From a virus, in the IMG/VR virus record IMGVR_UViG_3300035660_000001, positions 62,001 through 126,000 of that record: a stretch of 64,000 bases of DNA. One strand, 5' to 3'. Positions 16,937 to 50,182 of this stretch are shown here, in pieces. The stretch's first letter is position 1. Each line of letters opens with the position of its first letter. A model generated the notes under the pieces. It did no database searches, was not told the origin of the DNA, and saw nothing but the letters and a program-made list of their open reading frames with translations. A program made the position numbers and the translations under genes.

Positions 16937-17040
16937 TACATCCCCTCCTCGACATGATGTGGGCGGACCACTGGACGATCCTGGCCCGGGTGATCATCAA
17001 CCTCAAATCCTTCATCGCAAAGTCATGGCCTCATTCCTGA
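16933..17040 (+). CDS. Micro-ORF overlapping the start of ATP-grasp gene 2
   Basis: A 35-codon frame begins at an ATG overlapping the previous stop (ATGA) and runs 16 bases past the start of the second ATP-grasp gene. The product is rich in Trp, Ile, Leu and His (MMWADHWTILARVIINLK in the middle) and could be an amphipathic helix. The arrangement mirrors the micro-ORF before ATP-grasp gene 1. It may act as a coupling leader or as a substrate peptide; neither is shown. Confidence 0.42.
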   Translation: MIHPLLDMMWADHWTILARVIINLKSFIAKSWPHS

Positions 17041-21719: not shown

Positions 21720-21721
21720 AG

Positions 21722-22096
21722 ATGTGGAATGGCCTCTCGTTTCCGTTCCGGAAAGCCGGAGATGGATTTCCCCCGGCCAGCCAGGGGGATAGCCACATCT
21801 GGGAGAGCATCCAGCAGATCCTCTTGACCCGGAGAGGCGAGCGGGTGATGAACCCGGAGTTCGGGTCCAACCTTCAGGATATCGTCTTTGAAAATAACGA
21901 TGACGACATGGCTGTGGCTATGGGGGTCTTTGAGATCAAACAGTCCCTTGCCCGGTGGGAGCCTCGGATCAACATCATCGACGTGCAGGGGACGTCCGAT
22001 CCTGTCACAGGCTACGTCAATTTTGTAATTGAATATGAGGTCGCCGGGAATCGCTACGGCAATAATCTTCCCGTAGAAAGGTCGGTAGTGATATGA
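21722..22096 (+). CDS. Baseplate wedge protein, gp25/gpW family
   Basis: The 124-residue product has the gp25 signature: IWESIQQILLTRRGERVMNPEFGSN in two pieces around residues 28-50 (the conserved Arg-Gly-Glu-Arg stretch and the PEFGS turn), followed by LQDIVFEN and a C-terminal beta pair (NFVIEYEV). It forms part of the wedge that links hub to sheath initiation. The gene precedes the gp6/J-like gene with a four-base overlap, the usual order. Confidence 0.88.
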   Translation: MWNGLSFPFRKAGDGFPPASQGDSHIWESIQQILLTRRGERVMNPEFGSNLQDIVFENNDDDMAVAMGVFEIKQSLARWEPRINIIDVQGTSDPVTGYVNFVIEYEVAGNRYGNNLPVERSVVI

Positions 22097-23868
22097 TCAT
22101 AGACGTCAGAGAGCTTTCATCTTTTCCGGACGATCCGCAGGACTACGATATCGTTTATCTCGCCCCGTCCGGAACGACCTATGTGTTCGTTTCGGGGTCG
22201 GGTTGGGTCGAGAAGACGTTTGACGCCCGTCTGCCGAGTGAGTTTCAGATGCGGGATCCCCTTACAAGGGTTTCCTACTACGGGCGGGACTACCAGACGA
22301 TCCTCGACGAGATGCAGGCGTGGCTGAGGGTGAAGTATCAGGACACCTACCAGGACTTCCTGGACAGCGATATGGGCGTGATGCTCATGCAGTTAATAGC
22401 CTACGTCGGAGATGGCCTGGCGTGGTATCAGGACTTCAAGGCCTCGGAAGCCTTTATCGGGACGGCTTCCCTCCGCAAGAACGTGGGTCGGGGAGCGTGG
22501 AATCTCGGCTACAAGGTTGGCCGGGCGATCGCCGCCCGGGCGGCGGTAACGATCGCTCTTACGCAGACCTACACCTTCGACGTGGTCATCCCGAGCGGGA
22601 CAGCCTGTGCGGGTCCAAACGACCTGCAGTTTACTCTGAACGATGACGTAAAGTTCTATACGGGAGAGCTCGTTCTTCGCCCGGTCGAAGCGGTGAAGGC
22701 TACCGTTACCGAAGGGCAGGTCATCCGCATGGCCTTTATCTCGGACGAAAGTTCCAATCAGAAATTCCCCCTCTCCGATCACCCCGCAGAAAAGTTCGTA
22801 GCCCAGGGAACGATGCTGGTTACGGTCGACGGCGTTCACTGGATGGAGCAGGATTACTGGACGTTCGACGGGACGAATCATTGCATCGTGGACTATAATG
22901 ATTCGCCGCCGACGCTCAAGTTCGGAGATGGGGTAAGCGCCCCTATCCCTCGGGACGGGGCGCAGATTGAAGTCTCTTGGAGGGCTTGTTCCGGAGCCTT
23001 GGGAAACGCGAAGAGCGCCTCCATCACGTCTTTCAAATCGCCCGTCTACGTCAAAGGGACGGAAATCCGGGCTACTCTCAACAACGTCCTCGGGGCTTCG
23101 GGAGGCGCCGACGAGGAGGACACCCGCCACGTCAAGGTTTACGCCCCCCGGATTTTCCTTACCAAAGACCGTGCGGTCACGATCGGGGACTACGAGACCC
23201 TCGCTATGAACTACGTCGACGTAGAGGGAAGCCTTGCGAGGGCCCGGGGCGTGGTGGTCAAGCAGGTTTTGGATGATGCCTACCTGCAGGGGCTTTTGAA
23301 TTTGATCACGGATGCCGGGACAAAGGCCGCCCTCACGAACTACCTTACCGGGATCATCGCCTCGGGTCGGGACGTGAATCTTATCAAGCTCTACGTTCTG
23401 TCTCTGGATGGCAGTGGGACCTATGTCGATCCGTCGACGAACTTCATGAACCGACTGTCCGATTATCTCGAGACGAAGAAGGTCGCCACCGTCGTGGTTC
23501 AAATTGTGGCCGGATCGACGCTCCTGCGGTTGGTGAATATCACCATCCAAATCGGAGTGCTCGATAACTACAACGCCGGGGACGTGATCTCCGCCGTGAA
23601 TGCCGCAGTGCAGGAGCTTCTCAAGAACAGGAACTTCGGAATTGCTCTGCGGGCCTCGCACGTTTATGAGGCCGCTCAGGAGGTCGCCGGTGTGGACTAC
23701 GTTCGGGTTACGCTCAGTCTTCCCGTGGGATCGACCGGGGTGAAGATGGACAGCGGGGACGCCATCCCTGATCCGCAGTATATCCTGGTGGCCGGGACCG
23801 TTAGCATCACCGGGACAATTAGGCCGAGGAATACACAGCCGCCTCGGGATATCAGGGCGACTTACTAA
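22093..23868 (+). CDS. Baseplate wedge protein, gp6/gpJ-like
   Basis: The 591-residue product follows gp25 and has the Baseplate_J layout: an N-terminal helical part with YQTILDEMQAWLRVKY and SDMGVMLMQLIAYVGDGLAW near residues 75-115, a beta-rich middle with LKFGDGVSAPIPRDGAQI near 275, GALGNAKSASI, then GADEEDTRHVKVYAPR near 337 and TIGDYETLAMNY, which are well-conserved J-domain elements. It forms the ring of the wedge. Confidence 0.85.
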   Translation: MIIDVRELSSFPDDPQDYDIVYLAPSGTTYVFVSGSGWVEKTFDARLPSEFQMRDPLTRVSYYGRDYQTILDEMQAWLRVKYQDTYQDFLDSDMGVMLMQLIAYVGDGLAWYQDFKASEAFIGTASLRKNVGRGAWNLGYKVGRAIAARAAVTIALTQTYTFDVVIPSGTACAGPNDLQFTLNDDVKFYTGELVLRPVEAVKATVTEGQVIRMAFISDESSNQKFPLSDHPAEKFVAQGTMLVTVDGVHWMEQDYWTFDGTNHCIVDYNDSPPTLKFGDGVSAPIPRDGAQIEVSWRACSGALGNAKSASITSFKSPVYVKGTEIRATLNNVLGASGGADEEDTRHVKVYAPRIFLTKDRAVTIGDYETLAMNYVDVEGSLARARGVVVKQVLDDAYLQGLLNLITDAGTKAALTNYLTGIIASGRDVNLIKLYVLSLDGSGTYVDPSTNFMNRLSDYLETKKVATVVVQIVAGSTLLRLVNITIQIGVLDNYNAGDVISAVNAAVQELLKNRNFGIALRASHVYEAAQEVAGVDYVRVTLSLPVGSTGVKMDSGDAIPDPQYILVAGTVSITGTIRPRNTQPPRDIRATY

Positions 23869-23877
23869 GGAGGGAGA

Positions 23878-24300: not shown

Positions 24301-24314
24301 TAGGAGGAGGAACC

Positions 24315-28972: not shown

Positions 28973-29743
28973 ATGCCTGGGTTTGGTCAGGATAGATTTG
29001 GGGAGGACCCGTTCGGTCGGGCGGCCTTTGGCTTTCCGGCCCTGTGGGGCGGAGTACCCGGAATCTATAGGGACAAAGACGACGATCGGGGAGGTGTTCT
29101 CAAGGACTTTTTCGATGTAGCCGCAACCCCCCTCGAGCGTCTCAAGGTGGCCGCCGATGGTTTCATGAGCCTTCGCGACCCCATGTCTGTCCGACCTGAT
29201 CTCCTCCACTACTTAGCCGAGATGTTCGCCATCGACGTAGACGTCCGCTGGTCAGACGATTTTCTCCGGGCGTTTCTGGACTCCTACGGCTACTGGACTC
29301 TCCGCAAGGGAGAGATATGGTGCTACGACTTCGTTCTGCGGATGACCGGGATGGACATCACAGTCAAAGACCTTTACGAGATTCAGGTCCAGCGGGGCGA
29401 TCCGGCGTCCTACTACCTTCTGCGGGCGGGCTACGAGGCGGTGGCCGGAGTGAATGAGGGGTTCGATGAGTGGATCATCTACTTTGCGGGATCTGGAAAC
29501 TGGGTTCCGAAAGAGGAGATTCCCATCGACCGTGAAGGCGTTCCCTTAAGCAAGGTTCAGGTCAACATTACGGAGAGCAATTCTCGGAAGAGAGCAGAGT
29601 GGAGTGCGGGAGATTTCAAGATGCTGAGACGTTTGGTCGGATGGATTCATCCTGCCCACGTATCGATCCCCCGGGTCCGGGTAACCTACGAGATTAACGA
29701 CCGTCTTTCGGCGTCCGATACCGTCAGCGCAATTCCATCATAA
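28973..29743 (+). CDS. Baseplate/tail protein, P2 gpI-like
   Basis: The 256-residue product contains LKDFFDVAATPLERLKVA, VRPDLLHYLAEMFAIDVD, then WSDDFLRAFLDSYGYWTLRKG near residues 90-110, which is the helix order of Tail_P2_I proteins joining baseplate and fibres. The C-terminal part (about 120-256) is beta-rich and ends PAHVSIPRVRVTYEI. AGGAGGAGATCAGGTCG precedes the ATG. Known gpI proteins lie after gpJ; here several genes separate them. Confidence 0.68.
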   Translation: MPGFGQDRFGEDPFGRAAFGFPALWGGVPGIYRDKDDDRGGVLKDFFDVAATPLERLKVAADGFMSLRDPMSVRPDLLHYLAEMFAIDVDVRWSDDFLRAFLDSYGYWTLRKGEIWCYDFVLRMTGMDITVKDLYEIQVQRGDPASYYLLRAGYEAVAGVNEGFDEWIIYFAGSGNWVPKEEIPIDREGVPLSKVQVNITESNSRKRAEWSAGDFKMLRRLVGWIHPAHVSIPRVRVTYEINDRLSASDTVSAIPS

Positions 29744-32838: not shown

Positions 32839-33243
32839 ATGCGAAACGGCGTCAAGGCGTTGTCCTATGAGCTTGTTTCTAATGCTCTGATTTCAGCTGG
32901 GAGATATGATGATGGCGAAGCGAAGGACTTCCTCAAGGGCTATCACGAGACGATCTGGAGCGAGATCCTGCCCGTCGACGATGACATGATCGATCGTGCT
33001 CTTCGGGCGAGGCTCAAAAGCTCCTCTCGGGTGAAGGAGTTTTTCGTCCACATAGCGGCCTTGAAGATGGCGGGGCGAGGGGGACTTACACCAACCCAGT
33101 TTGCTCTTCACCTGGGGATCACGGTTCCCAAAGCCTCCACAATTCTGACGGAGCTGAAGCGGCGCGGCAAGCTCAAGTGCGTATCCTGCAGAGGGATGCG
33201 AATCTACACTCCAAAGAATGGGAATGGCAACGGGCATAAGTGA
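32839..33243 (+). CDS. Winged-helix DNA-binding protein upstream of fibre 2
   Basis: The 134-residue product has a helical N-terminal part and, at about residues 78-122, a helix-turn-helix pattern (GLTPTQFALHLGITVPKAST, ILTELKRRGKLKCVSCRG), followed by RIYTPK, a likely wing strand, and an Asn/Gly-rich end. The pattern matches winged-helix regulators. Its stop overlaps the GTG start of fibre 2. A regulator here could control fibre expression or have an unrelated target. Confidence 0.6.
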   Translation: MRNGVKALSYELVSNALISAGRYDDGEAKDFLKGYHETIWSEILPVDDDMIDRALRARLKSSSRVKEFFVHIAALKMAGRGGLTPTQFALHLGITVPKASTILTELKRRGKLKCVSCRGMRIYTPKNGNGNGHK

Positions 33244-36200
33244 GTCCGACTAATCCTGGTGACATTCGTGGAGAACGGAAGAGTCCGGATGGCGTATCCA
33301 AATCTCTTCCGTCTTCCATCTTCTCCTGGCATTTAAATAACGAGATCTACGGCCAGGGACTCCCGGCGCCTGTCGGGGCATCCGGCTATTCCGGAACCGA
33401 CAAGCACATCAGCCCGAGGGATCACGTTCACGAGGGCGTTCACTCGATCGGGATCATCTCGCCCGTCGCGCCTCCTGCCCTGCACGGAGACGTTCGCTTC
33501 CAGGGTTACAGCGGGATCGACGTTGTCCAGAGCGGCCAGACGATCGCCATCAGTGGGGCGTCCGGTGGATCGGGGACATCGGGGGCCAGCGGGTATTCGG
33601 GGTTCAGTGGATACAGCGGGCCATCCGGGGCTTCAGGAGCTTCTGGGGCCTCGGGCCTGTCCGGGGCTTCAGGCGTGTCCGGGGAGAGCGGTTATTCGGG
33701 GGCCAGCGGGGCTTCAGGGGCTTCAGGAGCCTCTGGGACGTCCGGGACGTCCGGATACTCGGGTCAGTCGGGGTTCTCAGGCCAGAGTGGCCTTTCCGGG
33801 GCTTCTGGGGCATCCGGGACCTCGGGAGCTAGCGGTCAGAGCGGGTATAGCGGGTTTTCCGGGTTTTCAGGCCAAACGGGGGCTTCTGGGGCGTCCGGAG
33901 CCTCCGGGTCGAGCGGATCATCGGGTTACTCGGGACAATCGGGCTGGTCCGGCCTTTCCGGGGCTTCTGGGGCTACAGGAACGTCAGGCGCCTCCGGCCA
34001 GAGCGGGTACTCCGGCCTTTCGGGCTTTTCCGGCCTATCTGGGGGGTCCGGGGCTTCAGGAGCCTCGGGCGCCTCCGGGCAATCCGGATACTCGGGGTTC
34101 TCCGGGTTCACGGGAGCCAGCGGGGCATCAGGAGCCAGTGGATCGTCTGGTGCCTCGGGGAACTCGGGATACTCGGGGTTCTCGGGGTTCTCTGGATCCA
34201 GCGGGGCGTCTGGTCTGTCGGGGGCCAGTGGAGCGTCCGGAGCCAGTGGGGCAAGTGGTCTTTCCGGCTACAGCGGCTTCTCCGGGTTTAGTGGACCTTC
34301 CGGGGCATCCGGGCAGAGTGGAGCGAGCGGTGCATCAGGAGCATCAGGATATAGCGGGTTCAGCGGATTCACAGGAGCATCAGGAGCGTCAGGTGCCAGT
34401 GGAGCTTCAGGTGCATCAGGACAATCAGGCTACAGTGGTTTCTCGGGTTTCAGTGGCCTATCGGGAACTTCAGGAGCATCTGGTGCATCAGGGGCCAGCG
34501 GTCAGTCTGGGTATTCTGGGTTCTCTGGATTCAGCGGGGCATCCGGCCTCTCGGGTACGAGTGGTGCTTCCGGAGCCTCTGGGGCGTCTGGAGCTTCAGG
34601 TGCTTCTGGATACAGCGGGTTCAGCGGGTTCTCTGGGATCTCCGGAGCCTCGGGAGCTAGTGGTCTTTCAGGTGCGTCTGGACAGTCGGGCTACTCGGGA
34701 CTTTCTGGATTTTCTGGCCCGTCAGGTGCGTCTGGGGCCAGTGGAGCATCCGGGCAGTCCGGGTACTCCGGGTTCTCGGGGTTCACCGGGGCATCCGGTT
34801 TAAGCGGAGCGTCGGGAGCCAGCGGCGCAAGTGGCGCCAGCGGTCAATCGGGTTACTCAGGGTTCTCGGGATTTACAGGACTCAGCGGGGCCTCTGGTCT
34901 CAGCGGTGCCAGCGGGGCATCAGGTGCCAGCGGCCAGTCCGGGTACTCCGGCCTCAGTGGTTTCTCGGGTCCAGGTGGGGCGTCCGGTGCTTCTGGGGCT
35001 AGTGGTCAATCGGGATATAGTGGGTTCAGTGGTTTCTCGGGCCTCAGCGGAACTTCCGGAGCATCCGGCGCGTCGGGAGCTTCAGGCCAATCAGGGTATT
35101 CGGGCTTCTCGGGATTTTCCGGTTTGTCCGGATTGTCCGGAGCGTCAGGCGCGAGCGGTGCGTCTGGTGCTTCAGGTCAGTCCGGATATTCTGGTTTCTC
35201 GGGGTTCACTGGTGCTTCCGGTCTCTCCGGGGCCAGCGGAGACTCGGGGGCCTCGGGTCAGAGCGGGTATTCTGGATTTTCAGGTTTCACAGGGGCATCG
35301 GGAGCGTCCGGCCTTAGTGGTGCGTCCGGCCAATCTGGTTATTCTGGATTCTCCGGCTTCAGTGGGATCTCGGGAGCCAGCGGAGCTTCCGGGGCCTCGG
35401 GAGCATCGGGGCAAAGCGGTTACAGCGGGTTTTCTGGATTCAGTGGTCTGTCAGGTTCTTCCGGCGCATCGGGGGCCTCCGGCGCCTCGGGAGCATCAGG
35501 ACAATCCGGCTACTCGGGATTCAGTGGATTCACGGGGGCATCGGGACTAAGCGGAGCATCGGGGGCCTCGGGAGCGAGCGGACAAAGTGGATACTCAGGT
35601 CTCAGTGGTCTTTCTGGAGCGGTGGGACTTTCGGGCGCGTCTGGTTATTCAGGATTTAGTGGGTTCAGCGGTGCGAGCGGGGCATCAGGTCTTTCTGGTG
35701 CGAGTGGGGCATCCGGGGCCAGCGGCCAGAGCGGCTATTCGGGATTCAGTGGGTTCACCGGGGCTTCCGGAGCCTCAGGTGCGAGTGGAGCTTCTGGTGC
35801 TTCCGGACTCTCCGGCTACAGCGGTCTTAGCGGACTCAGCGGATCGTCTGGCGCGTCTGGCGCGTCCGGGGCCTCCGGCCTCAGTGGGTATTCCGGATTC
35901 TCGGGATTCACTGGGCTTAGTGGAGCTTCCGGGGCAAGTGGAGCTTCCGGGGCCAGCGGCCAAAGCGGTTACAGCGGCTTCTCCGGGTTTTCAGGACTTT
36001 CTGGTGCGAGTGGCGCGTCCGGAGCTTCCGGCGCATCAGGACTTTCAGGTGCTTCCGGAGCCAGTGGCCTCAGCGGCTACTCCGGATTTAGCGGATTCAC
36101 GGGAGCCTCTGGCCTTAGTGGGGCCTCGGGAGCGAGTGGAGCAAGTGGGCAGTCCGGATATTCCGGCTTCTCAGGCTTCACCGGAGCCTCTGGGCTCAGC

Positions 36201-39200
36201 GGAGCTTCAGGAGCGAGTGGAGCCTCCGGTCAGTCTGGGTATTCCGGATTCAGCGGATTCAGCGGCCTCAGCGGTGCTTCCGGCCTTTCAGGAGCCTCGG
36301 GTGCCAGTGGTGCTAGTGGAGCATCCGGAGCCAGCGGAGCGAGTGGCTACTCGGGCTTCTCGGGCTTCACGGGAGCCTCGGGACTTTCTGGGGCATCCGG
36401 CGCTTCCGGAGCTTCCGGCCTCAGTGGATACTCAGGCTTTTCGGGATTCACTGGGGCTAGTGGTCTCTCTGGAGCCTCCGGCGCCTCAGGCGCCAGCGGA
36501 CAGTCCGGCTACTCGGGCTTCAGCGGATTCAGTGGACTCTCGGGTGCCTCGGGAGCGAGTGGAGCATCTGGGGCTTCTGGACAGTCGGGATATAGCGGAC
36601 TCTCTGGGTTTTCTGGACTCTCTGGGGCCTCCGGAGCCTCGGGAGCATCAGGGCTCTCGGGAGCATCCGGGGCCAGCGGTCTAAGCGGCTACTCAGGCTT
36701 CAGTGGGTTCACGGGTGCTTCCGGCGCATCGGGTCTTAGCGGGGCCTCTGGTGCATCCGGACAAAGTGGATATTCGGGCTTCAGCGGCTTTACCGGGGCG
36801 AGTGGTCTGTCTGGTCTTTCCGGGGCCAGCGGGGCCTCCGGGGCCAGCGGCTATTCCGGATTCAGCGGGTTCTCGGGACTGTCCGGTGCATCCGGTCTCA
36901 GCGGAGCGAGCGGGGCCAGCGGAACTTCCGGAGCTTCGGGCCAATCAGGTTACTCTGGTCTCAGCGGTTTCTCTGGCCTCAGTGGAGCTTCAGGAGCCTC
37001 GGGGGCCAGCGGGGCATCTGGACAAAGCGGGTACTCTGGTTTCAGCGGCTTCACTGGTGCTTCGGGTCTCAGCGGAGCGTCAGGCGCCTCCGGTGCTTCC
37101 GGTCTAAGCGGTTATTCCGGGTTCAGCGGATTTACGGGCGCCAGCGGGCTTTCCGGATTATCCGGAGCTAGTGGCGCCTCTGGCGCGTCGGGGGCTTCAG
37201 GCCAATCGGGTTACAGTGGATTCTCGGGGTTCACGGGGTTATCCGGTGCATCAGGTCTTTCGGGTGCCAGCGGGGCTAGTGGAGCGTCCGGCCAGAGTGG
37301 GTATAGTGGTTTCAGCGGATTCAGCGGGTTGTCCGGTCTCTCCGGAGCTAGTGGGGCTTCAGGAGCGAGCGGGGCAAGCGGAGCTTCCGGCCAGTCGGGC
37401 TATTCCGGGTTCTCTGGGTTCACCGGCGCCTCCGGCCTCAGTGGAGCAAGTGGTGCTTCTGGAGCCTCCGGTCTCAGCGGATATAGTGGCTTCAGTGGCT
37501 TTTCCGGGATCTCAGGCGCGTCTGGACTTAGCGGGGCCTCTGGTGCCAGTGGTCTATCGGGCTACTCCGGCTTCAGCGGATTCACCGGGGCCTCGGGCCT
37601 CAGTGGGGCTTCGGGAGCATCGGGTGCATCAGGCGCCTCGGGAGCTTCCGGCCTCTCGGGCTACTCAGGCTTCTCAGGCTTCAGTGGTTTAAGTGGAGCG
37701 TCAGGAGCCTCAGGTGCTTCCGGGGCTTCCGGTCAGAGCGGGTATTCCGGATTTAGTGGATTTACGGGTCTTAGCGGTGCCTCGGGAGCAAGCGGAGCAT
37801 CCGGAGCTTCTGGCCTCTCCGGGTATTCTGGTTTTAGTGGATTCACAGGAGCCTCTGGTCTTTCTGGGGCATCTGGGGCCAGCGGCGCCTCGGGGCTAAG
37901 TGGATATTCCGGCTTCTCAGGCTTTTCTGGTCTCTCCGGCCTCAGCGGAGCGAGCGGAGCCTCTGGTGCTTCGGGAGCGAGCGGAGCGTCTGGACTTTCT
38001 GGTTATTCTGGATTCTCTGGTTTTACCGGGGCTAGTGGCTTGTCCGGAACTTCAGGGGCTTCAGGAGCTTCTGGGGCCTCAGGTGCCAGCGGGGCATCGG
38101 GGTATAGTGGCTATCTCTCTCCTTCTCTGTTTAGAAACTATACCAACGCAGAATATCTGGCCAGCGATACAGCGGGATGGTACGCTCCCGTGGCGAGAAC
38201 TGGAAACGAAAGAGTTTATCTCTGCCAGACTCCGCAGACTCAGAATAATGTTGGGTTCCGCATCAGAGCGGCGTTTAAGCCCAATGCCTCGACAGATACC
38301 TACGGAATATGTTTTGGATGGAATGGAGTAAACCCGGCATCTGCTACGGGGTTGGTCTTTTACTATACTGGTGCCGGAACTACACTAAATATGTCTGTTG
38401 ATAATGCCGGAAGCTGGTCTAGTGTGTCTGGCGGTGCTTTTACGGTCACATTGGCTACGGGACAGTGGCATAATATAGAACTCTATATATATCCCAACGT
38501 TGGAAGTGCTGTCAATGTAGTCGATTGCTATTGCGATGGTATTTTCTACTATCGGATGACGACTTCCGACTTCTCTGCTTTCGCCGCTTATACGGGTTAC
38601 TATGGGGTCTGGTTGGATGCCACGGCGGTCAGGGTTCACCCCGACTTTATCGTCGATGAACTTGGGTCGGTTATGGCCCCGAAGATCAGCTACGAAGGTT
38701 ATCCGGGTTTCTACGACCACTTCGACGGGACCTCTCTCGACACAAATTCTTGGACTAAGGTGGGAGCCTCTGCTACTTATTCGGTGAATCAAAGTATAAT
38801 AGGTATCCTGAACGCCGGGGGCACCTATGGTGAAATGTATACAAAGAGGACGTGGCTATACGGTAGACTTTCCATGCGGGTGAAGGATGATTTCGATAGG
38901 TCGGGTGTGTTCCGAAACGCCGTTGGTTTCTGGAATGCGGCAGGTACTTATTATGTTCGCTTTAATGACGGTAAGTTTGAGACCTACGATGGGACAGTAA
39001 CTCAGACGACGGTCGCGGTTCCAGCCAAGGCATGGCATCTTATAGAGATTACGTGGGACCCTAATAAGTGTAGGATGTTATTAAACGGTCAGGTCGTTGC
39101 AGAACATACGACACACATTCCGACGAACGTTTGGTTGCCTGTCCATATTTTTTCTGGCGACACTTCTGTTGGTATTAGTTTCGATTGGATTGGTGTTGTC

Positions 39201-39578
39201 GGGGCGTATGGTCTTAAGAACATAGACCACCTGTCTTTCGGAACTTTGGCTGGAGCAGGCGACCGCTATTTCAGCGTTGGGAACGAAGCGACTGGAACAA
39301 GATATTCAACACTGATGATGTCTCCCGGAAGAATTATAGGGTTACGGTGTCGTGGTGCGACCATAGGATTGAGGACAGCACTTAGGAATGTAGCTCCCGT
39401 CTACTTTGCTGAGGGTGATGATATATCTGTCCGAATATGGTATACTATGGTTGGAGGAACTTTTGTGGAAGTTTGGAAGAATGGTGCTCTGGCGACAGGG
39501 TGGTCTGATAATGTTGATGCGGTCAGTGATTCTCGTAACCAGGAGTGGGTTGCTACGGTCTTGGTGGAGTACCTGTAA
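33240..39578 (+). CDS. Tail fibre 2: giant Gly-X-Ser repeat fibre with lectin-like tip
   Basis: The 2112-residue protein starts at a GTG overlapping the previous stop. Residues 1 to about 105 are a base with the motif HISPRDHVHEGVHSIG common in phage fibres. Residues about 106-1623 are Gly-X-Ser triplets; I count 506 (4554 bases, an exact multiple of nine) and saw no break. Residues about 1624-2112 are beta-rich and look like concanavalin/laminin-G jelly rolls, for example GYPGFYDHFDGTSLDTNSW and WHLIEITWDPNKCRMLLNG. Proline is almost absent from the repeat. Its role is receptor binding at long reach. Confidence 0.85.
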   Translation: MSPTNPGDIRGERKSPDGVSKSLPSSIFSWHLNNEIYGQGLPAPVGASGYSGTDKHISPRDHVHEGVHSIGIISPVAPPALHGDVRFQGYSGIDVVQSGQTIAISGASGGSGTSGASGYSGFSGYSGPSGASGASGASGLSGASGVSGESGYSGASGASGASGASGTSGTSGYSGQSGFSGQSGLSGASGASGTSGASGQSGYSGFSGFSGQTGASGASGASGSSGSSGYSGQSGWSGLSGASGATGTSGASGQSGYSGLSGFSGLSGGSGASGASGASGQSGYSGFSGFTGASGASGASGSSGASGNSGYSGFSGFSGSSGASGLSGASGASGASGASGLSGYSGFSGFSGPSGASGQSGASGASGASGYSGFSGFTGASGASGASGASGASGQSGYSGFSGFSGLSGTSGASGASGASGQSGYSGFSGFSGASGLSGTSGASGASGASGASGASGYSGFSGFSGISGASGASGLSGASGQSGYSGLSGFSGPSGASGASGASGQSGYSGFSGFTGASGLSGASGASGASGASGQSGYSGFSGFTGLSGASGLSGASGASGASGQSGYSGLSGFSGPGGASGASGASGQSGYSGFSGFSGLSGTSGASGASGASGQSGYSGFSGFSGLSGLSGASGASGASGASGQSGYSGFSGFTGASGLSGASGDSGASGQSGYSGFSGFTGASGASGLSGASGQSGYSGFSGFSGISGASGASGASGASGQSGYSGFSGFSGLSGSSGASGASGASGASGQSGYSGFSGFTGASGLSGASGASGASGQSGYSGLSGLSGAVGLSGASGYSGFSGFSGASGASGLSGASGASGASGQSGYSGFSGFTGASGASGASGASGASGLSGYSGLSGLSGSSGASGASGASGLSGYSGFSGFTGLSGASGASGASGASGQSGYSGFSGFSGLSGASGASGASGASGLSGASGASGLSGYSGFSGFTGASGLSGASGASGASGQSGYSGFSGFTGASGLSGASGASGASGQSGYSGFSGFSGLSGASGLSGASGASGASGASGASGASGYSGFSGFTGASGLSGASGASGASGLSGYSGFSGFTGASGLSGASGASGASGQSGYSGFSGFSGLSGASGASGASGASGQSGYSGLSGFSGLSGASGASGASGLSGASGASGLSGYSGFSGFTGASGASGLSGASGASGQSGYSGFSGFTGASGLSGLSGASGASGASGYSGFSGFSGLSGASGLSGASGASGTSGASGQSGYSGLSGFSGLSGASGASGASGASGQSGYSGFSGFTGASGLSGASGASGASGLSGYSGFSGFTGASGLSGLSGASGASGASGASGQSGYSGFSGFTGLSGASGLSGASGASGASGQSGYSGFSGFSGLSGLSGASGASGASGASGASGQSGYSGFSGFTGASGLSGASGASGASGLSGYSGFSGFSGISGASGLSGASGASGLSGYSGFSGFTGASGLSGASGASGASGASGASGLSGYSGFSGFSGLSGASGASGASGASGQSGYSGFSGFTGLSGASGASGASGASGLSGYSGFSGFTGASGLSGASGASGASGLSGYSGFSGFSGLSGLSGASGASGASGASGASGLSGYSGFSGFTGASGLSGTSGASGASGASGASGASGYSGYLSPSLFRNYTNAEYLASDTAGWYAPVARTGNERVYLCQTPQTQNNVGFRIRAAFKPNASTDTYGICFGWNGVNPASATGLVFYYTGAGTTLNMSVDNAGSWSSVSGGAFTVTLATGQWHNIELYIYPNVGSAVNVVDCYCDGIFYYRMTTSDFSAFAAYTGYYGVWLDATAVRVHPDFIVDELGSVMAPKISYEGYPGFYDHFDGTSLDTNSWTKVGASATYSVNQSIIGILNAGGTYGEMYTKRTWLYGRLSMRVKDDFDRSGVFRNAVGFWNAAGTYYVRFNDGKFETYDGTVTQTTVAVPAKAWHLIEITWDPNKCRMLLNGQVVAEHTTHIPTNVWLPVHIFSGDTSVGISFDWIGVVGAYGLKNIDHLSFGTLAGAGDRYFSVGNEATGTRYSTLMMSPGRIIGLRCRGATIGLRTALRNVAPVYFAEGDDISVRIWYTMVGGTFVEVWKNGALATGWSDNVDAVSDSRNQEWVATVLVEYL
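33555..38108 (+). repeat. Uninterrupted Gly-X-Ser triplet region of fibre 2
   Basis: These 4554 bases code for 506 successive Gly-X-Ser (rarely Gly-X-Thr, -Val or -Gly) triplets with no shift of register that I can see. Aromatic groups GYS GFS GFS/T recur every 8-11 triplets, often preceded by GQS and followed by GAS or GLS runs. Codons for Gly, Ser and Ala vary from copy to copy, so long exact DNA repeats are rare. The base composition also leaves other frames open, giving several long false ORFs. Confidence 0.92.
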
Positions 39579-43039: not shown

Positions 43040-44569
43040 ATGTGGTCTGCGGAAACATCTAAAGGCTTCGAGTCCCGTAAGTGTCGTGCTCGTCTCGAAG
43101 GGTTCTGTAAAGGAACCGGCGTTGATCTCGGATGTGGTGATGAGAAGGTCGTTCCCACAGCTATCGGAGTGGATCGTGCTGGCAAGGAAGTGAATGTCGC
43201 CGGAGACATCACTTCCCTTCCTATTTTCTCGGACGACGCCTTCGATTACGTATTCTCCTCCCACGCCCTCGAAGATCAGGTCGACACGATGGCGACCCTT
43301 CGGGAGTGGTGTCGGCTTGTGAGGCCGGGGGGCTATCTTGTTCTCTACGTTCCGCACAAGAACTTCTATCCCAATATCGGAATGCCGGGATCTAATCCGA
43401 ACCACCGCTACGACTTCTTGCCGGAGGATATCCTTCGGCTTTTAGCTCTTCTGGACGGCATGGAGTTCCTTCACGTCGAATCCCACAACGAGAACGACGA
43501 GTATGCCTTTGACCTCGTAGCCCGGAAGGTCGACTTCCAGTCCGACAGGGATCGGCTGATCACGACCGTGAAGAATTTGAACTACCTGCCGGAGGATCCC
43601 GTGCTTCTGGCTCAGCTGAAGGACTTGCGGACGAAGGTCGACTCCATCCAGGTTCAGAGGCTCGGGATGCTCGGGGACATGCTCATGACCCTCCCCGCCG
43701 TGTCCCAGCTCAAGAAGAAGCACGACGTCCTCATTTACCTCACCGATCCCAAGTGGCTCCCCTTGATTGCAGACCATCCGGACATCGACGTTATCCGCTT
43801 CTCTAACCCGCCCGGGACGCCTCCCGGGGAGAAGGGCTTCGCCCAGTGGCCGGACACGGATATCTACTTCCGGTATCCCGATCGGAAGGTCCAGGACACG
43901 AAGCATCTCACGGAGTGGTTCTGTGAGCAGGCCAGGGTCCCGCCGAGCCGAGATATCTACTACCCCGTCGACCCGAACGTCTGGAAGACTATGGGGGAGA
44001 TCGTCGGCAAGGTCGGCATGCCCTATATCGTCGTTCACCCTTACCCCGGCTTCACGATCAACAAGGCCTGGCCGCCCCGGCTGTGGGCCCGGCTTTGCCA
44101 GCGTCTGATGGTAGAGGGCTACAGGATCATTCAGGTCGGAGATCGTGGGGAAGAGCCCGTCCTGAAGGAGAGCTACAATTTTACTTGTGCCGCTGGGATG
44201 ACGAACCTGAAGGGTCTGGCCGCCCTCATAGGCCGGGCTCAGGCGTTGATCTGCGGGGACTCCGTGACCAATCATCTCTCGCAGGCCATGAAGACCCGCG
44301 CGGTCGTGATTTTCGGAAGCACGTGCCCGAAGAGCTCCGGCTACGATCAGAATGTAAATATCTTCCAGGGCGTCAAGTGCCAGCCCTGCTATATGGAGGA
44401 CAAGATTTGCAACCACAGGGCATGCCTCGACGGGGTTTCCGTTGAGCAAGTCTACGACGCCCTGATGTCGGTCCTGAAGGTGGGGAAAACTTCAAGTATA
44501 GAAGAACCCCGCATTCACAATCGGGATCAAGAGGAGGTGAAGAAAAGTGAAGATAGCGTTCGACCTTGA
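43040..44569 (+). CDS. Methyltransferase / GT9 heptosyltransferase-like fusion
   Basis: The 509-residue product joins two enzymes. Residues about 1-165 are a class I methyltransferase: motif I GVDLGCGDEKV near 29, FDYVFSSHALEDQVD near 69, and VRPGGYLVLYVPH near 95. Residues about 190-490 resemble the ADP-heptose:LPS heptosyltransferase family (GT9): RLGMLGDMLMTLPAVSQL, YIVVHPYPGF near 331, GLAALIGRAQALICGDSVTN near 393, and a final Cys-rich loop CQPCYMEDKICNHRACLDG. It is the first gene behind the promoter. The ribosome site (AGGAG) is 14-17 bases away, so the start is somewhat uncertain. Confidence 0.78.
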   Translation: MWSAETSKGFESRKCRARLEGFCKGTGVDLGCGDEKVVPTAIGVDRAGKEVNVAGDITSLPIFSDDAFDYVFSSHALEDQVDTMATLREWCRLVRPGGYLVLYVPHKNFYPNIGMPGSNPNHRYDFLPEDILRLLALLDGMEFLHVESHNENDEYAFDLVARKVDFQSDRDRLITTVKNLNYLPEDPVLLAQLKDLRTKVDSIQVQRLGMLGDMLMTLPAVSQLKKKHDVLIYLTDPKWLPLIADHPDIDVIRFSNPPGTPPGEKGFAQWPDTDIYFRYPDRKVQDTKHLTEWFCEQARVPPSRDIYYPVDPNVWKTMGEIVGKVGMPYIVVHPYPGFTINKAWPPRLWARLCQRLMVEGYRIIQVGDRGEEPVLKESYNFTCAAGMTNLKGLAALIGRAQALICGDSVTNHLSQAMKTRAVVIFGSTCPKSSGYDQNVNIFQGVKCQPCYMEDKICNHRACLDGVSVEQVYDALMSVLKVGKTSSIEEPRIHNRDQEEVKKSEDSVRP

Positions 44570-44855
44570 CGGGACGCTTGCGAGGGAGACCCCAGGAAAA
44601 GAGGGAGGAGAGATCGGAGAGCCTATATTCCCGAATATCGATCTGGCGATGAAGTGGATGCGGGAAGGGAACCTGGTCTTTATCTTTACCGCCCGGGGCT
44701 GGTGGGAATACGAAGTCATCCGGTCTTGGATGGAGAAGAACGGCCTGAAGGATGCTGTCCTCGTCTGTGGGAAGCTCCACGCCGATATCTACTTTGATGA
44801 TCGTGGACGACAGCTCGACGAAAACACCTTAACCGGAATGAAGAGCCCCGCATGA
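44547..44855 (+). CDS. HAD-type phosphatase
   Basis: The 102-residue product begins MKIAFDLDGTLARETPGK; D6 and D8 form the HAD DxD nucleophile pair. FIFTARGWWEYEVIRSWMEK holds the motif II Thr, and IYFDDRG a motif IV-like acidic pair. It is a minimal HAD fold without a clear cap. GAGGAGGTGAAGAAAA precedes the GTG start. In a glycan operon such enzymes often remove phosphate from sugar intermediates. It overlaps its neighbours at both ends. Confidence 0.76.
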   Translation: MKIAFDLDGTLARETPGKEGGEIGEPIFPNIDLAMKWMREGNLVFIFTARGWWEYEVIRSWMEKNGLKDAVLVCGKLHADIYFDDRGRQLDENTLTGMKSPA

Positions 44856-46606
44856 TCTCGGTTGTGATGCCCATTCTGAACCGGGTTTCTCTCCTCAAGA
44901 GGGGACTCCCATCGATCTACACCCAGGACTATCCTCGAGAGAATTACGAGGTCATCTTCGTCGACTACGGGTCCACGGATGGCCTCAAGGAATACCTGCA
45001 GGCCCTTTCCGGCGTTCTGAATCTCACCTACCTTCGGATCGACGACTCGAAGGCCAAGATCCCCGTCTATCACGGTCCCACCGGGACATGCAACCCCGCT
45101 CTGGCCTGGAACGTCGGGATCCGAAGGGCCCGGGGCAATCTGATCATGCTGACCAGCCCGGAGGTCATCCACGTTACCGAGACCTTATGGCAAGCCGATG
45201 AGGTCGGCAAGGAGGGTCGGGTCGTCCGTGCTCGGGTCGTGGACGTCCCTCCCTGGACCCAGGATTTGATCGACGAGCTCCACACCTTCAGTTCCTCGGG
45301 GATGATCAACCTCACCAGTTCCACCGAGCGACCGGACATGGCCGGACTTTACTTCATCGGGGTCGTCCCGAAGGCCCTGCTCGAGAAGATCGGGGCGCTC
45401 GATGAGGACTACATGATGGGTCTGGCATGGGAGGATACGGACGCTGGACAGCGGATGCTGGCTACGGGAGCGGAGCTCTACCATGCCGACGATATGATCG
45501 GGCTCCACCAGTGGCATCCCCGGGTCGATCTCCGGGAAGACCCCTACTGCCTCAAGAACCAGGTTCGCCACCTGAGAGAGTTCAAGACCGTCGCCAACGT
45601 CGGTCGGGTTTGGGGGGATCCCGACGTGATCGTGGACGAGTGGCACTGCACCCCTGTTGCGGATCGCAAACTACCCCGGTTCAACATCCTGAAGCCCGCG
45701 AAACGCCTCGTGGGATTCGTTCGGACGTATAACGAGGTCGGGCGGGACTACTTCGATCAGTTCTTCGATCAGGCCAAGACCTGGGGTCTCGATGCACTCT
45801 TCGTTCTCGACGACTGCTCCACGGATGGGACGGTAGCGGCCGTCCGGAAGCACACGAAGTATGTCTGGGTTCGAGACCATAATCACGGGAAGCACTACGA
45901 GATCCAAAATATGATGTTCCTGGTCGACCGGTGCAAAGAGGTCGGGGCCCAGTGGATGCTTTGGATGGACATCGACGAGGTCTTGACCAATCGCGCCGGG
46001 GAGATCATGAAGCGGCTGATGGAGGAAGGTGACAAGCAGGACTGGTCGTCGGTCTACTTTCCCGAATACAATCTCTGGAAGACGCCCCGCTGGCGTCGTC
46101 GGGACATGGGTTGGTCGTGTAGCACGGGTTGGGCGAGGCTGTGGAGGAACGACGGAGTTATGTTCTACGATCAGGCCGCGAACGTTGGAGCCCACCTTCA
46201 GCTGTGGCCCCGATGCCTCGACAGGAACTCGTTCCGGACGGAGGAGGTTGCCGTCCTGCACTACGGCTACGCATCGAAGGAGAACATCGATGCCAAGTGG
46301 GAAGAGTATACGAGGCTTGATTCCCGTCGCCTCTTCCTCTACACAAGAATTCTGGACGAGACGAACCTGGTCCTGCAGGCGTTGCCGAATTCGATTTTCC
46401 CTGCGGGGCTGGAGCCGGGGCCGGAGGACGATATGTTTCCGAGATGGACGGAGAAGGATCTCGATCGCATCGCAGAGGTCATTGGGAGGTGCGGATGGAC
46501 AATGAGGCCGTTGGTGGAAGCCGATTTTCTGCAGACAGTATATCAGGAAACCCAGCAGATAAAATTGGCAGGCTTGCCCGATATTACTTTTGCGGGTACG
46601 CTTTAA
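44852..46606 (+). CDS. Two-domain GT2 glycosyltransferase
   Basis: The 584-residue product carries two GT-A domains. The first (about 1-250) has ISVVMPILNRVSLLKRGLPS, VIFVDYGSTDGLKE and ALDEDYMMGLAWEDTDAGQR. The second (about 285-540) has RLVGFVRTYNEVGRDYFDQF, FVLDDCSTDGTV, MLWMDIDEVLTNRAGE (acidic metal site) and YNLWKTPRWRR. The second domain is a clear paralogue of the gene at 47711. The ATG overlaps the HAD stop. The last 112 bases overlap the next gene in another frame. Confidence 0.8.
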   Translation: MISVVMPILNRVSLLKRGLPSIYTQDYPRENYEVIFVDYGSTDGLKEYLQALSGVLNLTYLRIDDSKAKIPVYHGPTGTCNPALAWNVGIRRARGNLIMLTSPEVIHVTETLWQADEVGKEGRVVRARVVDVPPWTQDLIDELHTFSSSGMINLTSSTERPDMAGLYFIGVVPKALLEKIGALDEDYMMGLAWEDTDAGQRMLATGAELYHADDMIGLHQWHPRVDLREDPYCLKNQVRHLREFKTVANVGRVWGDPDVIVDEWHCTPVADRKLPRFNILKPAKRLVGFVRTYNEVGRDYFDQFFDQAKTWGLDALFVLDDCSTDGTVAAVRKHTKYVWVRDHNHGKHYEIQNMMFLVDRCKEVGAQWMLWMDIDEVLTNRAGEIMKRLMEEGDKQDWSSVYFPEYNLWKTPRWRRRDMGWSCSTGWARLWRNDGVMFYDQAANVGAHLQLWPRCLDRNSFRTEEVAVLHYGYASKENIDAKWEEYTRLDSRRLFLYTRILDETNLVLQALPNSIFPAGLEPGPEDDMFPRWTEKDLDRIAEVIGRCGWTMRPLVEADFLQTVYQETQQIKLAGLPDITFAGTL

Positions 46607-47553
46607 GAGACTACAGCATCCAGACCGTCTGCGTGGCCGGAGAAGAAAGCGCAGAGGAGAAGCGGATACTGTCGGACATGGGATTTAAGGTGGTCGACCT
46701 AAAGGGGTCACCCCCCGATGCATTCGTTTGCCTCGATACGTTCAATAAGACGTCCGACTGGACGAACTTTGAATATGGGAAGCAGTTAGTAGGGTGTGCC
46801 ACGAAGGTTTTAATGTTTTCCGTTAAGACCGATGAGTTCGATCGGGGAGTTCTGCCCCCGGAGACAACCCTTTTCTACCAGACGTCCGAAGGATTTATTT
46901 ATGATCGGGATACGCACTTCCTTCCGGCCTCCTATCTCATAGGGCTCATAGTTAAGGAGCAGAAGGAGGGGCCTCTCCGTGTCATCCTGGGGTATCACTG
47001 GGCCCAGGCGCCCGGATGGAAGATTTTAACGCATGCCGATCAGGATATTACGAAGCCCCTGCAGTTTCAGGCCGGGAGTGTGGAGTGCCTGTTTATGGAG
47101 CATGTCCTCGAGCATGTGGACTTCGTGGACGCCCTCAAGTTCTTCGGGGAGGCTTACCGGGTCTTGAAGCCGGGAGGCGTTCTCCGGATCGTATCCCCGG
47201 ATCTCGATAAGCTAGGTTGGTTTATGCGAAGGGGTGAGATCGAAAGTCGAGACAAGGAGTATATCAAGACGTTGGTCGATAAGTATTCTATCCCCGAGAG
47301 CCTTCAGGACCGCGACACGTTTTACGTCTTTCTGGTGAACGAGATAGTTCGGGAGCATGGCCATAAGTTCGTTTGGACCGTCCCGCTCATTACCGATGCC
47401 CTTCGGGAGTCCGGCTTTGAGGTTGAGGTATTCGGGGTTGGGGAGGGGACCAATCCTGACTTCTGCCTTGAGCGGAAACGCCGGGGCCTGAAGGATGAGA
47501 TCGGACCGCCATACGACTGCGAGAGTTTCCACGTGGAGGGGATCAAGCCGTGA
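46495..47553 (+). CDS. Tandem methyltransferase-like protein, first domain degenerate
   Basis: The 352-residue product has an N-terminal half (about 1-165) related to the methyltransferase at 48618: LARYYFCGYAL pairs with LVRYYFAAEIL, and TLFYQTSEGFIYDRDTHFLP with TKFFYQTEDGLIYDR. Its SAM motif I is lost, however. The second half (about 170-350) is an intact Methyltransf_11 type: SVECLFMEHVLEHVDFVDAL and RVLKPGGVLRIVSPDLDKLG. GGGAGG five bases before the ATG decides the start, deep inside the preceding gene. Confidence 0.7.
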   Translation: MDNEAVGGSRFSADSISGNPADKIGRLARYYFCGYALRDYSIQTVCVAGEESAEEKRILSDMGFKVVDLKGSPPDAFVCLDTFNKTSDWTNFEYGKQLVGCATKVLMFSVKTDEFDRGVLPPETTLFYQTSEGFIYDRDTHFLPASYLIGLIVKEQKEGPLRVILGYHWAQAPGWKILTHADQDITKPLQFQAGSVECLFMEHVLEHVDFVDALKFFGEAYRVLKPGGVLRIVSPDLDKLGWFMRRGEIESRDKEYIKTLVDKYSIPESLQDRDTFYVFLVNEIVREHGHKFVWTVPLITDALRESGFEVEVFGVGEGTNPDFCLERKRRGLKDEIGPPYDCESFHVEGIKP

Positions 47554-47714
47554 CCCATTACTACGCATGGAAAAATAATCCCAAGAGGAGGGAACTCTAT
47601 GGGCGTAAGTGTCGAATCGTAGCGAGGGGGAAAATGAATAGCATTCTGATTGAGTTTGAGAATGGACAGCGGGAATGCGTATCACGCAATGCGGTGAGGA
47701 GAATTAAGCCATGA
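47550..47714 (+). CDS. Small conserved protein (YGRKCRIVARGKMNS type)
   Basis: A 54-codon GTG-started frame overlaps the stops and starts of both neighbours by four bases. It encodes a basic protein with YGRKCRIVARGKMNSILIEF followed by ENGQRECVSRNAVRRIKP. The pattern of a strand-rich half with an ARGKMN turn is met in small phage proteins of unknown role and may form an SH3-like barrel. The clean coupling supports it as real. Confidence 0.6.
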   Translation: MTHYYAWKNNPKRRELYGRKCRIVARGKMNSILIEFENGQRECVSRNAVRRIKP

Positions 47715-48625
47715 TGAAGATGGCCGCTATCGTTCGTGTTTACAACGAGATGATCACGGGGCATGCCCAACGGTTCTTTGCCCACTGGAAGGACTGGGGA
47801 GCGGACGAGCTCTTTGTCCTCGACGATCACTCCGACGACGGGACAGCGGAGTATGCCCGGAAGTTCACGCCTCACGTCTGGGTGCGGGAGAACAGGTTCG
47901 GCAGGAACAGGGAGAAGGAGAATACGGTATTCCTTCTGGACCGGGTGAACGATGTTGGAGCCGAGTATATCCTTTTCATGGACTGCGATGATATCCTTAG
48001 CCGGGGGGCCGGACAGCGTCTGCGGGAATACTGGCTTCCTATGATGGATGATCGGAACTTCAGCTCCCTGGTCTTTACGTCCTACAATCTATGGCGGAAA
48101 CCCCGCTGGCGTCGGGTCGACTCGATGTGGGCATGTGAGGATCAGTTCTATCGGCTGTGGAAGAACGAGGGCCTGAAGTTCGATGTGATTGAAGAGAAAC
48201 AAATGCATGCCCCCCCAGCTCCTCCGCAGGTTTTTCGGTACTGGACGATCGTGCCTCACACGGATATCACGTTCCTGCATTACGCCTATGCCGACCTTTA
48301 CGGATTAAGGAAACGCTTCCTGCACTACGCCAATCTCGACGGGAAACGCATAGGGATGTATGCCCGGATCATCGACGAGTCCAACCTGATGTTAGAGCGG
48401 GTTCCGGATGAGCGGTTTCCGGAGGATCTCGTGCCCGGCTCTGATCAGGAGGAGTATCTCAGAACCCCAATGGACGACCTGCACCTTCTCGGCAGGTCTA
48501 TGGGCCGGGCCTGTTGGAAGGACAAGCCCATTGAAGAACGGACGGAGTGGTGGGATTGTGCCGATGTGAATAAGCGTATTCTGGAATCTAACCGACCGGG
48601 AATGAGGATTTTAGGCGATGAGTAA
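47711..48625 (+). CDS. GT2 glycosyltransferase
   Basis: The 304-residue product has AAIVRVYNEMITGHAQRFFA, LFVLDDHSDDGTAEYARKF, YILFMDCDDILSRGAGQRLR (acidic metal site) and YNLWRKPRWRR, which align with the second domain of the gene at 44852. It resembles WaaE-type GT2 proteins. It lies between a small basic protein and a methyltransferase, with overlaps on both sides. Sugar donor and acceptor cannot be told. Confidence 0.8.
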   Translation: MMKMAAIVRVYNEMITGHAQRFFAHWKDWGADELFVLDDHSDDGTAEYARKFTPHVWVRENRFGRNREKENTVFLLDRVNDVGAEYILFMDCDDILSRGAGQRLREYWLPMMDDRNFSSLVFTSYNLWRKPRWRRVDSMWACEDQFYRLWKNEGLKFDVIEEKQMHAPPAPPQVFRYWTIVPHTDITFLHYAYADLYGLRKRFLHYANLDGKRIGMYARIIDESNLMLERVPDERFPEDLVPGSDQEEYLRTPMDDLHLLGRSMGRACWKDKPIEERTEWWDCADVNKRILESNRPGMRILGDE

Positions 48626-49115
48626 CATTCACCTGTCCGCGATTTTCAGGAAATTAGTCCGCTACTACTTCGCCGCCGAAATTCTGGAAGAGTGTGGGGT
48701 CCAGGGTTTTGTCATGGACGTCGGGTGCGGGGATGGTCTGGGATCAGACGCTTTGGCTAAGTCAGGCTTCCACGTCGTGGGGATCGACAATTCCGTCCAG
48801 TATGCCAACGATCACTTCGGGGACTCGGGTCGATCTATCTTTTTGCCGTCCACCATCGAAGATATAAAGTTCAAGGTCGACGCTGTGGTCGCCTTCGATG
48901 CCTTCGGGAGCGACAAGTTCAAGTTCTTCCTTTTCCCCGTCCTTGCGGAGATGGCGAAGAGGGTGTTCATCTTCTCGGAGACTTATATCCCGAAGGAGAC
49001 GATGATACCGGAGGGAACGAAGTTCTTCTATCAGACCGAGGATGGTTTGATCTACGACCGGATGCCGACCAAGCATCCCCCGATCAACCTTATCGGAGTG
49101 GTGATAAAGCCATGA
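48618..49115 (+). CDS. Class I methyltransferase (short)
   Basis: The 165-residue product has motif I VMDVGCGDGLGSDALA near residue 30, VVGIDNS near 52, and AVVAFDAFGSDKF near 85, then FFYQTEDGLIYDR and LIGVVIKP. It is shorter than most family members and is a relative of the N-terminal half of the gene at 46495. It overlaps both neighbours. Methylation of a sugar or a small acceptor is possible. Confidence 0.68.
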   Translation: MSNIHLSAIFRKLVRYYFAAEILEECGVQGFVMDVGCGDGLGSDALAKSGFHVVGIDNSVQYANDHFGDSGRSIFLPSTIEDIKFKVDAVVAFDAFGSDKFKFFLFPVLAEMAKRVFIFSETYIPKETMIPEGTKFFYQTEDGLIYDRMPTKHPPINLIGVVIKP

Positions 49116-50182
49116 TGCGATCTAAACCGTTGGAGGGCGCCCGGGTGCTGGTGACCGGAGGGACCGGCTCTTTAGGGAAGGTGCTGGTCCGGAGGATTTT
49201 TTCCGGGGAGATTGGCCTCCCCGACGAGGTGATCATATTCTCCCGGGATGAGGCCAAGCAACACTTTATGAGGATGGAGTGGCAACGAGCGACTGGGGCG
49301 GTCACCGACGAGAGGATTTATGAGGACTTCCGGAACAAGCTAAAGTTCGTGATCGGGGATGTGCGGGACTACGACAGCGTCTTTCGGGTGTTGGAGGACG
49401 TGGACGTTGTGTTCAATGCCGCCGCTTTAAAACAAGTCCCGACCTGCGAATACTTTCCCCTCGAGGCCGTGAAGACCAACATTCTCGGGGCGGGGAACAT
49501 CGTTCGTGCGGTCGAGGCGCACCCCCGAGTGAAGACGGTCGTGGGGATATCTACCGACAAGGCCGTGAAGCCCGTGAACGTCATGGGGATGACCAAAGCC
49601 ATCCAGGAGCGTGTCTTTATCGAAGCGAACATTCACTGCCCGGCCTGCTTCATCGTCGTCCGTTACGGTAACGTGCTGGCTTCTCGGGGATCTGTGATTC
49701 CCCTCTTCCACGATCAGATCAAGCACGGCGGTCCTCTCACGATCACCACGAGGGACATGACGAGGTTCCTGCTTACCCTCGACGATGCCGTGACTGCTGT
49801 TTTTACCGCTCTCAAAGAAGGGGAGCCTGGGGAGACCTACGTGCCGATCGTTCCCTCGGCGCGAGTTATTGATATCGCCGTAGCCTTGAAGGGTGACAGG
49901 CCGATCGACGTGCAGGTTATGGGGATCAGGCCGGGCGAAAAGACTCACGAGATCCTGGTCAGCGAAGAGGAGGCTTACCGAACAGTTCGGAGGGAATGCT
50001 ATTACGTTATCCTTCCGATGCTTCGGGAAATCCGGGGTGACGGCGAGCTCAAGCATCCTCTCGAGAAGGAATACAGTTCCGATGATGCCTTCATGAAATT
50101 CGACGATGTCGAAGCGTTCTTGAGGGGGAAGGGGCTGATGGTCGAGGACTACAAGCCCGAGTCGATGGAGTCCTTGCGATGA
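49112..50182 (+). CDS. CapE/FnlA-like UDP-GlcNAc 4,6-dehydratase/5-epimerase
   Basis: The 356-residue product is of the FlaA1/CapE group: VLVTGGTGSLGKVLVRRIF for NAD binding near residue 12, IFSRDEAKQHFMR near 43, NAAALKQVPTCEYFPLEAVK near 107 and GISTDKAVKPVNVMGMTKA near 140. The last segment shows the Met-x3-Lys site that replaces Tyr-x3-Lys in CapE-type enzymes. These enzymes start the UDP-N-acetyl-L-fucosamine pathway from UDP-GlcNAc. The CapG-like gene follows with a four-base overlap, but a CapF reductase is not in the window. Confidence 0.8.
   Translation: MMRSKPLEGARVLVTGGTGSLGKVLVRRIFSGEIGLPDEVIIFSRDEAKQHFMRMEWQRATGAVTDERIYEDFRNKLKFVIGDVRDYDSVFRVLEDVDVVFNAAALKQVPTCEYFPLEAVKTNILGAGNIVRAVEAHPRVKTVVGISTDKAVKPVNVMGMTKAIQERVFIEANIHCPACFIVVRYGNVLASRGSVIPLFHDQIKHGGPLTITTRDMTRFLLTLDDAVTAVFTALKEGEPGETYVPIVPSARVIDIAVALKGDRPIDVQVMGIRPGEKTHEILVSEEEAYRTVRRECYYVILPMLREIRGDGELKHPLEKEYSSDDAFMKFDDVEAFLRGKGLMVEDYKPESMESLR

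Follow-up and report, generated by a model that had tools for sequence, protein, structure and literature searches.

Collagen-like proteins of bacteria and their phages are built of Gly-X-Y triplets. Bacterial collagens rely on proline in the X position, on charge pairs and on hydration by Thr and Gln (PMC8968730; PMC3368898), and proline occupies 19-31% of their X positions (PMC8968730). EPclA and EPclB, from prophages of E. coli O157, have a 111-residue collagen domain with proline in nearly half of the X positions and 22% charged residues (PMC3368898). The BclA protein is glycosylated (PMC8968730), and in the cuticle collagen of Riftia glycosylated Thr is associated with stability (PMC10141479, PMC11766948). 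Here we describe a gene of an uncultured phage for a probable tail-fibre protein with a long Gly-X-Ser rod. It lies in a stretch of 64,000 nucleotides (the window), positions 62001-126000 of a 160,139-bp virus contig (IMG/VR record IMGVR_UViG_3300035660_000001).

As in EPclA and EPclB, the Gly-X-Y region of this phage protein has non-collagen ends. It differs from them in having only 4 Pro and 2 charged residues in a run of 507 triplets, and its trimeric state is presumed. In our working model the rod shares with Riftia cuticle collagen and Bacillus BclA a hydroxyl third residue as the glycan site. The Riftia residue is Thr rather than Ser and its glycan has been demonstrated, whereas that of the window rod is proposed here; BclA is a spore protein. 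The polyglycine-II proteins, the S16 gp38 adhesin and the snow-flea antifreeze protein, share with the rod a Gly-rich three-residue periodicity, but they consist of short strands joined by loops and the rod is one unbroken run. Glycans on virion proteins are known from mycobacteriophages, on the C-termini of capsid and tail-tube subunits (Freeman et al. 2023, cited in PMC12619734); unlike in our proposal, no repeat rod is the target in the work as cited there.

Register, composition and internal order of the rod

The rod protein is encoded on the plus strand by a single open frame of 2112 amino acids with a GTG start (33240..39578). Translation gave 507 consecutive triplets at 33555..38117 with Gly at every third residue (507/507) and no break of register, a copy number that may be off in a metagenome contig. 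Pfam Collagen (PF01391) matched over the rod at 1.2e-210. The original prediction had claimed 506 Gly-X-Ser triplets at 33555-38108 without a register break, which proved exact; one further triplet, GYL, follows directly. Its remark that proline is almost absent also agrees with the counts, as proline makes up 4 of 1012 X and Y residues.

In the 506 triplets the third position is held by Ser (479) or Thr (25) in all but two cases, one Gly and one Val (Ser/Thr 504/506). The X position is mostly Ala (219), Phe (91), Leu (76), Tyr (55), Gln (35) or Thr (10), followed by Ser (6), Pro (4), Ile (3), Gly (2) and one each of Val, Glu, Trp, Asn and Asp. The single Asp and the single Glu are the only charged residues. 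Stabilisation by imino acids or charge pairs, which is usual although not strictly defining in bacterial and phage collagens, was therefore not found in the rod. A pattern of 20 Gly-X-(Ser/Thr) triplets had 545 matches in the window (in the rod protein and a second Gly-X-Ser protein together) and none in 100 shuffles, which excludes a chance origin.

The X positions are ordered. They spell about 49 cassettes of the form Q/L-Y-F-F-A-L-A-A-A, mostly nine triplets long. The 49 Y-[FL]-[FL] marks in X had a modal spacing of nine triplets (26 of 48 gaps, range 6-18), and the autocorrelation of F/Y at lag 9 was 0.57 as against a maximum of 0.18 in 500 shuffles. This spacing places an aromatic band about every 27 residues along the rod. 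Thr residues occur mostly after the second F of a cassette (GFTG). Tandem Repeats Finder reported only short sub-arrays of up to about 300 bases with 71-100% matching, and all four Gly codons (164/139/104/100) and all six Ser codons are used.

Selection on the register

Among IMG/VR records, relatives of the C-terminus were found in one sister virus only (L009/L010, 159,536 bp); in phage records no relatives of the C-terminus, the N-terminus or the rod DNA were found. A codon alignment of the window rod to the sister contained 459 Gly codons with 304 synonymous differences and a single replacement. Third positions had 306 synonymous differences and 39 replacements, and X positions 168 and 130. 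Indels between the two rods were nearly all multiples of three amino acids, that is, whole triplets. The near-invariance of Gly despite synonymous change, together with the whole-triplet indels, indicates that the register is under strong selection. The sister rod comprises 13+127+324 triplets with small breaks and so differs in length; from this comparison the rod appears free to vary in length but not in register.

Rod classes and the associated glycosyltransferase operon

In IMG/VR, at least 119 stretches matched a pattern of 30 Gly-X-[S/T] triplets. Among the matches listed, three classes could be told apart by X: Ser/Thr-X, hydrophobic-X (F/Y/I/W/L) and X-Thr. Ser/Thr-X rods were proline-free and ran unbroken for up to about 930 triplets, so that record length was rejected for the window rod, which is the longest unbroken rod found in the hydrophobic-X class only (507; the next has 333). 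The earlier suggestion that 506 triplets is exceptional finds no support in view of these phage rods, and proline-free rods are widespread. We defined the hydrophobic-X Gly-X-Ser class by two thresholds, 60% or more Ser in the third position and 35% or more hydrophobic residues in X; the window rod has 95% and 45%. In 190 rod open reading frames (ORFs) of the class, the commonest interruption was G1G (452 of 675). In the accessible parts of the open-licence literature on phage collagen, its glycosylation and the polyglycine-II fold, no description of the class was found.

The association of rods with glycosyltransferases (GTs) was examined first by looking for GT2 (PF00535) in contigs 20 kb or longer. 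A GT2 was present in 10 of 13 contigs with hydrophobic-X rods and in 24 of 32 of an independent second sample, compared with 8 of 27 contigs with Ser/Thr-X rods and with 6 of 33 and 4 of 39 random contigs. The split by X was made after the first sample had been seen, and the second sample is therefore the test. In seven of eight loci GT genes lay beside the rod gene, mostly abutting it. The order of the operon is rod, GT2-methyltransferase (~410 aa, gtA), GT2 (~323 aa, gtB) and GT9-like gene (~145 aa, gtC), with the GT set mostly within 60 bp of the rod gene and in strict polarity.

Profiles of gtA and gtB, seeded from these eight hydrophobic-X loci, detected a same-strand GT no more than 3 kb downstream of 55 of 100 hydrophobic-X rods and of none of 36 Ser/Thr-X and 13 X-Thr rods, and a GT in 1 of 213 random loci. 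After clustering, a GT was found downstream in 26 of 50 hydrophobic-X clusters and upstream in one, whereas none was found downstream in 29 Ser/Thr-X and 11 X-Thr clusters (26/50 versus 0/40, Fisher P 7e-9). Ser/Thr-X and X-Thr rods, with no adjacent GT, were rejected as partners of this GT set. Conversely, a Gly-X-Ser rod lay upstream in 47 of the 63 gtB loci with enough upstream sequence, and such a rod occurred in 1 of 213 random loci. gtB is nearly confined to viruses (at least 543 viral stretches versus 3 contigs among 84,980 genomes). Hydrophobic-X rods are thus specifically linked, in operons across viruses, to one GT set. No single X residue was found to be a strong discriminator of rods with an adjacent GT. 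The original prediction overlooked this link, by which the stability of a rod lacking proline could be explained.

Rod, gtA, gtB and gtC were also seen near phage-like genes on a contig binned as Candidatus Nitrosotalea (L537), which is probably a misbinned virus.

The same arrangement is present in a cultured phage. Methylophilaceae phage P19250A (KX815270.1) encodes a 1201-aa Gly-X-Ser protein at 21390-24995 (L458:3345-6950), directly followed by a methyltransferase, a GT2 and a GT9-like gene (APC43908-APC43911). Its rod gene is annotated as tail length tape-measure protein, which is a misannotation. Both this phage and the window have a hydrophobic-X, proline-poor Gly-X-Ser rod and methyltransferase, GT2 and GT9-like genes; the P19250A rod differs in having 281 triplets in three runs with X mainly Y/I/F, compared with 507 triplets and A/F/L/Y. 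Among 50,697 phage records a GT2 of the window (51290..52183) matched the GT2 of the P19250A rod operon only. P19250A has a genome of 38.7 kb and has been described as a siphovirus (PMC8163748).

Ends of the rod protein and tail context

The rod is preceded by a 105-aa N-terminal segment (33240..33554, plus strand) that is kept in the sister (79 of 103 aligned residues identical) and, from its position, is presumed to be the attachment end. Downstream of the rod, on the same strand, a beta-rich region (38118..39227) probably forms concanavalin/laminin-G-like domains; PF06439 matched weakly at aa 1826-1961 (4.5e-7). An AlphaFold2 (AF2) model of the C-terminus was of low confidence, and a Foldseek search with it returned mainly LG, galectin and GH16 folds, which we take as a hint only. 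In the window a distal tip module of about 116 aa (39228..39575, plus strand) follows, fused to the same chain. The sister tip is encoded by three separate, overlapping small ORFs (L009:11068-12166), 44-60% identical to the window copy, and it is possible that these form a set of alternative tips. For the window copy no Pfam match, no convincing PDB match and no relatives beyond the sister were found.

The rod gene lies in a tail/baseplate module. On the plus strand, this contains a probable tape-measure protein of 1151 aa with an SLT domain (3748..7203; PF01464), its role suggested by size and position, a baseplate wedge or J-like protein (22093..23868; phrog_219 6.6e-37, baseplate J in phage records) and a P2 gpI-like tail protein (28973..29743; PF09684 7.9e-6), all upstream of the rod gene, which thus stands where tail fibres are usually encoded. 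The rod protein has non-repeat ends and is similar to PHROG tail-fibre families as well as to Pfam Collagen, the family matches lying mainly on the repeat. Given its position in the module and the probable lectin-like end, the rod is best read as a tail-fibre shaft, and ORF 33240-39578 as a probable tail-fibre protein. Tail length amounts to 0.15 nm per residue of the tape measure. If this scale and the tape-measure call hold, the tail would be about 170 nm long, as against some 436 nm for the rod if it is collagen-like.

A second Gly-X-Ser fibre protein of 1376 aa is encoded upstream (9375..13505, plus strand). It has eight interruptions (four G4G, four G1G) and a glycine-rich C-terminus, and the sister virus yielded no match to its N-terminus. 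It is flanked by two proteins with partial similarity to phosphoribosylglycinamide synthetase (ATP-grasp; 7300-8625 and 16959-18350), and shortly downstream are a radical-SAM/methyltransferase fusion and a nucleotide-sugar epimerase (14203-16571). Of the features, the original prediction had found the rod, which is borne out, and had missed the cassette code, the lectin-like C-terminal domains and this second protein.

The glycan island of the window

A glycan island at 43040-53199, kept in the sister, carries GT2 and GT9 genes, methyltransferases, a dehydratase and a 2-epimerase, all on the plus strand. It begins with a methyltransferase and GT9 fusion (43040..44569; PF01075 6.7e-16, PF08241 1e-9) and a GT2-GT2 protein that resembles the gtA of rod operons (44852..46606; PF00535 1.5e-20, gtA profile 1.8e-6). 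These are followed by a methyltransferase (46444..47553; PF08241 3.6e-8), a GT2 (47711..48625; PF13704 2.1e-8), another methyltransferase (48618..49115; PF13649 5.3e-6), a nucleotide-sugar dehydratase-like protein (49112..50182; PF02719 2.3e-88) and a UDP-GlcNAc 2-epimerase (50179..51300; PF02350 5.8e-89). The last two genes are homologues of gtB (51290..52183; GT2, gtB profile 1.9e-19) and gtC (52237..53199; GT9, PF01075 1.6e-9, gtC profile 1.3e-10).

Directly after the island is a DUF932 protein (54113-55183). A radical-SAM/SPASM gene (39824-40585) starts 246 bp beyond the rod gene; enzymes of the SPASM type are often peptide modifiers, so that the rod might conceivably be modified in a second way. 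An Eco57I/TaqI-like protein of restriction-modification type (40527-42779) lies between the rod and the island.

A proposed glycosylated collagen-type shaft and its alternatives

We give about an even chance to the following reading, the simplest one that brings the findings together: the rod is a collagen-type trimeric tail-fibre shaft whose Ser/Thr residues are O-glycosylated by phage GTs, and it carries lectin-like domains and a receptor-binding tip. The protein would be an adhesin subunit in the tail fibres of a baseplate-bearing phage. Three intertwined chains would form an extended collagen-type helix, 507 triplets or about 436 nm long at 0.86 nm per triplet, with the lectin-like domains and the tip at its far end. 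Phage-encoded GTs would attach glycans to the third positions, and these glycans may keep the helix hydrated and stable and cover its aromatic bands. Third-position O-glycosylation is probable because the rod is without proline and charge pairs, the stabilisers known from bacterial collagens; it is also possible that Tyr in X is the acceptor. We hold somewhat more tentatively, short of even, a wider proposal, namely that proline-free hydrophobic-X Gly-X-Ser glyco-collagens are a widespread phage class, in which a virus-specific operon (GT2-methyltransferase, GT2, GT9-like) builds a methyl-capped Ser glycan that replaces proline in stabilising the helix.

Several points weigh against this reading. 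In the window the gtA-, gtB- and gtC-like genes lie 5-14 kb downstream of the rod instead of next to it, separated from it by the radical-SAM and Eco57I-type genes, and the larger island could have a different role. No GT lies within 3 kb in about half of the hydrophobic-X clusters, and the profiles behind this count were drawn from the very class under test. Host or virus lineage could confound or inflate the association. Ser/Thr-X rods have Ser in the third position without the GTs, so that Ser alone is not the trigger. The AF2 model of a 336-residue monomer fragment of the rod had a predicted local distance difference test score (pLDDT) of 30, which says nothing either way on the fold.

The original prediction had proposed either an unusual collagen or polyglycine-II. 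The rod, its low proline content, its tail-fibre site and this pair of candidates stood; the exceptional length was not supported. In a polyglycine-II assembly, left-handed three-residue helices would lie side by side, a chain either turning back with every 27-residue cassette or bundling with other chains, and the shaft would be shorter and thicker. Such a fold suits the spacing of Gly and the near absence of proline, and the nine-triplet period could mark strands of about 8 nm. Fold-back should, however, leave turns or register shifts at cassette ends, and none occur in 507 triplets, while the indels keep the register; the lack of a compact fold in the 336-residue AF2 model is weak evidence in the same direction. 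We consider polyglycine-II unlikely. Breaks of the G1G and G4G kinds resemble the interruptions of natural collagens, and both have been named for collagen IV (PMC9778032). The unbroken register, the whole-triplet indels and the G1G and G4G breaks in the paralogue and relatives favour the extended helix of the collagen-type reading, in which Gly would face inward, over a chain folded back many times.

The collagen-like rod might also be unglycosylated, its neighbouring enzymes remodelling host surface glycans, another virion protein or DNA. Phage GTs that act on DNA and on host serotype are known (PMC12619734), the island holds sugar-nucleotide enzymes beyond the three GTs, and half of the rod clusters are without an adjacent GT. 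On the other hand, the GT set abuts the rod with fixed polarity and is tied to one rod class as against other rods and random loci, and we judge this explanation no more probable than polyglycine-II. A flexible disordered tether, or a slippery low-complexity linker with no defined rod, would agree with the low-complexity composition, the absence of AF2 structure and the difference in length between the sisters; it is improbable, because one Gly replacement in 459 codons against 304 synonymous differences, with indels of whole triplets, is not expected of a mere linker. Long repeats are prone to misassembly, and from a metagenome contig the precise number of copies is uncertain, but an assembly or repeat-slippage artefact is very improbable, as the sub-arrays are short and imperfect, copies vary at synonymous sites, Gly is kept against the sister despite heavy synonymous change, the reading frame stays open over 2112 codons, the sister has the gene and the class occurs in many viruses.

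Should the glycosylated collagen-type reading be true, it would reveal a second route to collagen-type rods of great length, one that makes no use of proline, hydroxyproline or charge pairs. It is directly testable in the cultured phage P19250A, in which a misannotated tape-measure gene is corrected here. A function is also proposed for glycosyltransferases of a virus-specific family at present annotated as hypothetical, and the host-facing part of the phage gains a probable glycan coat.

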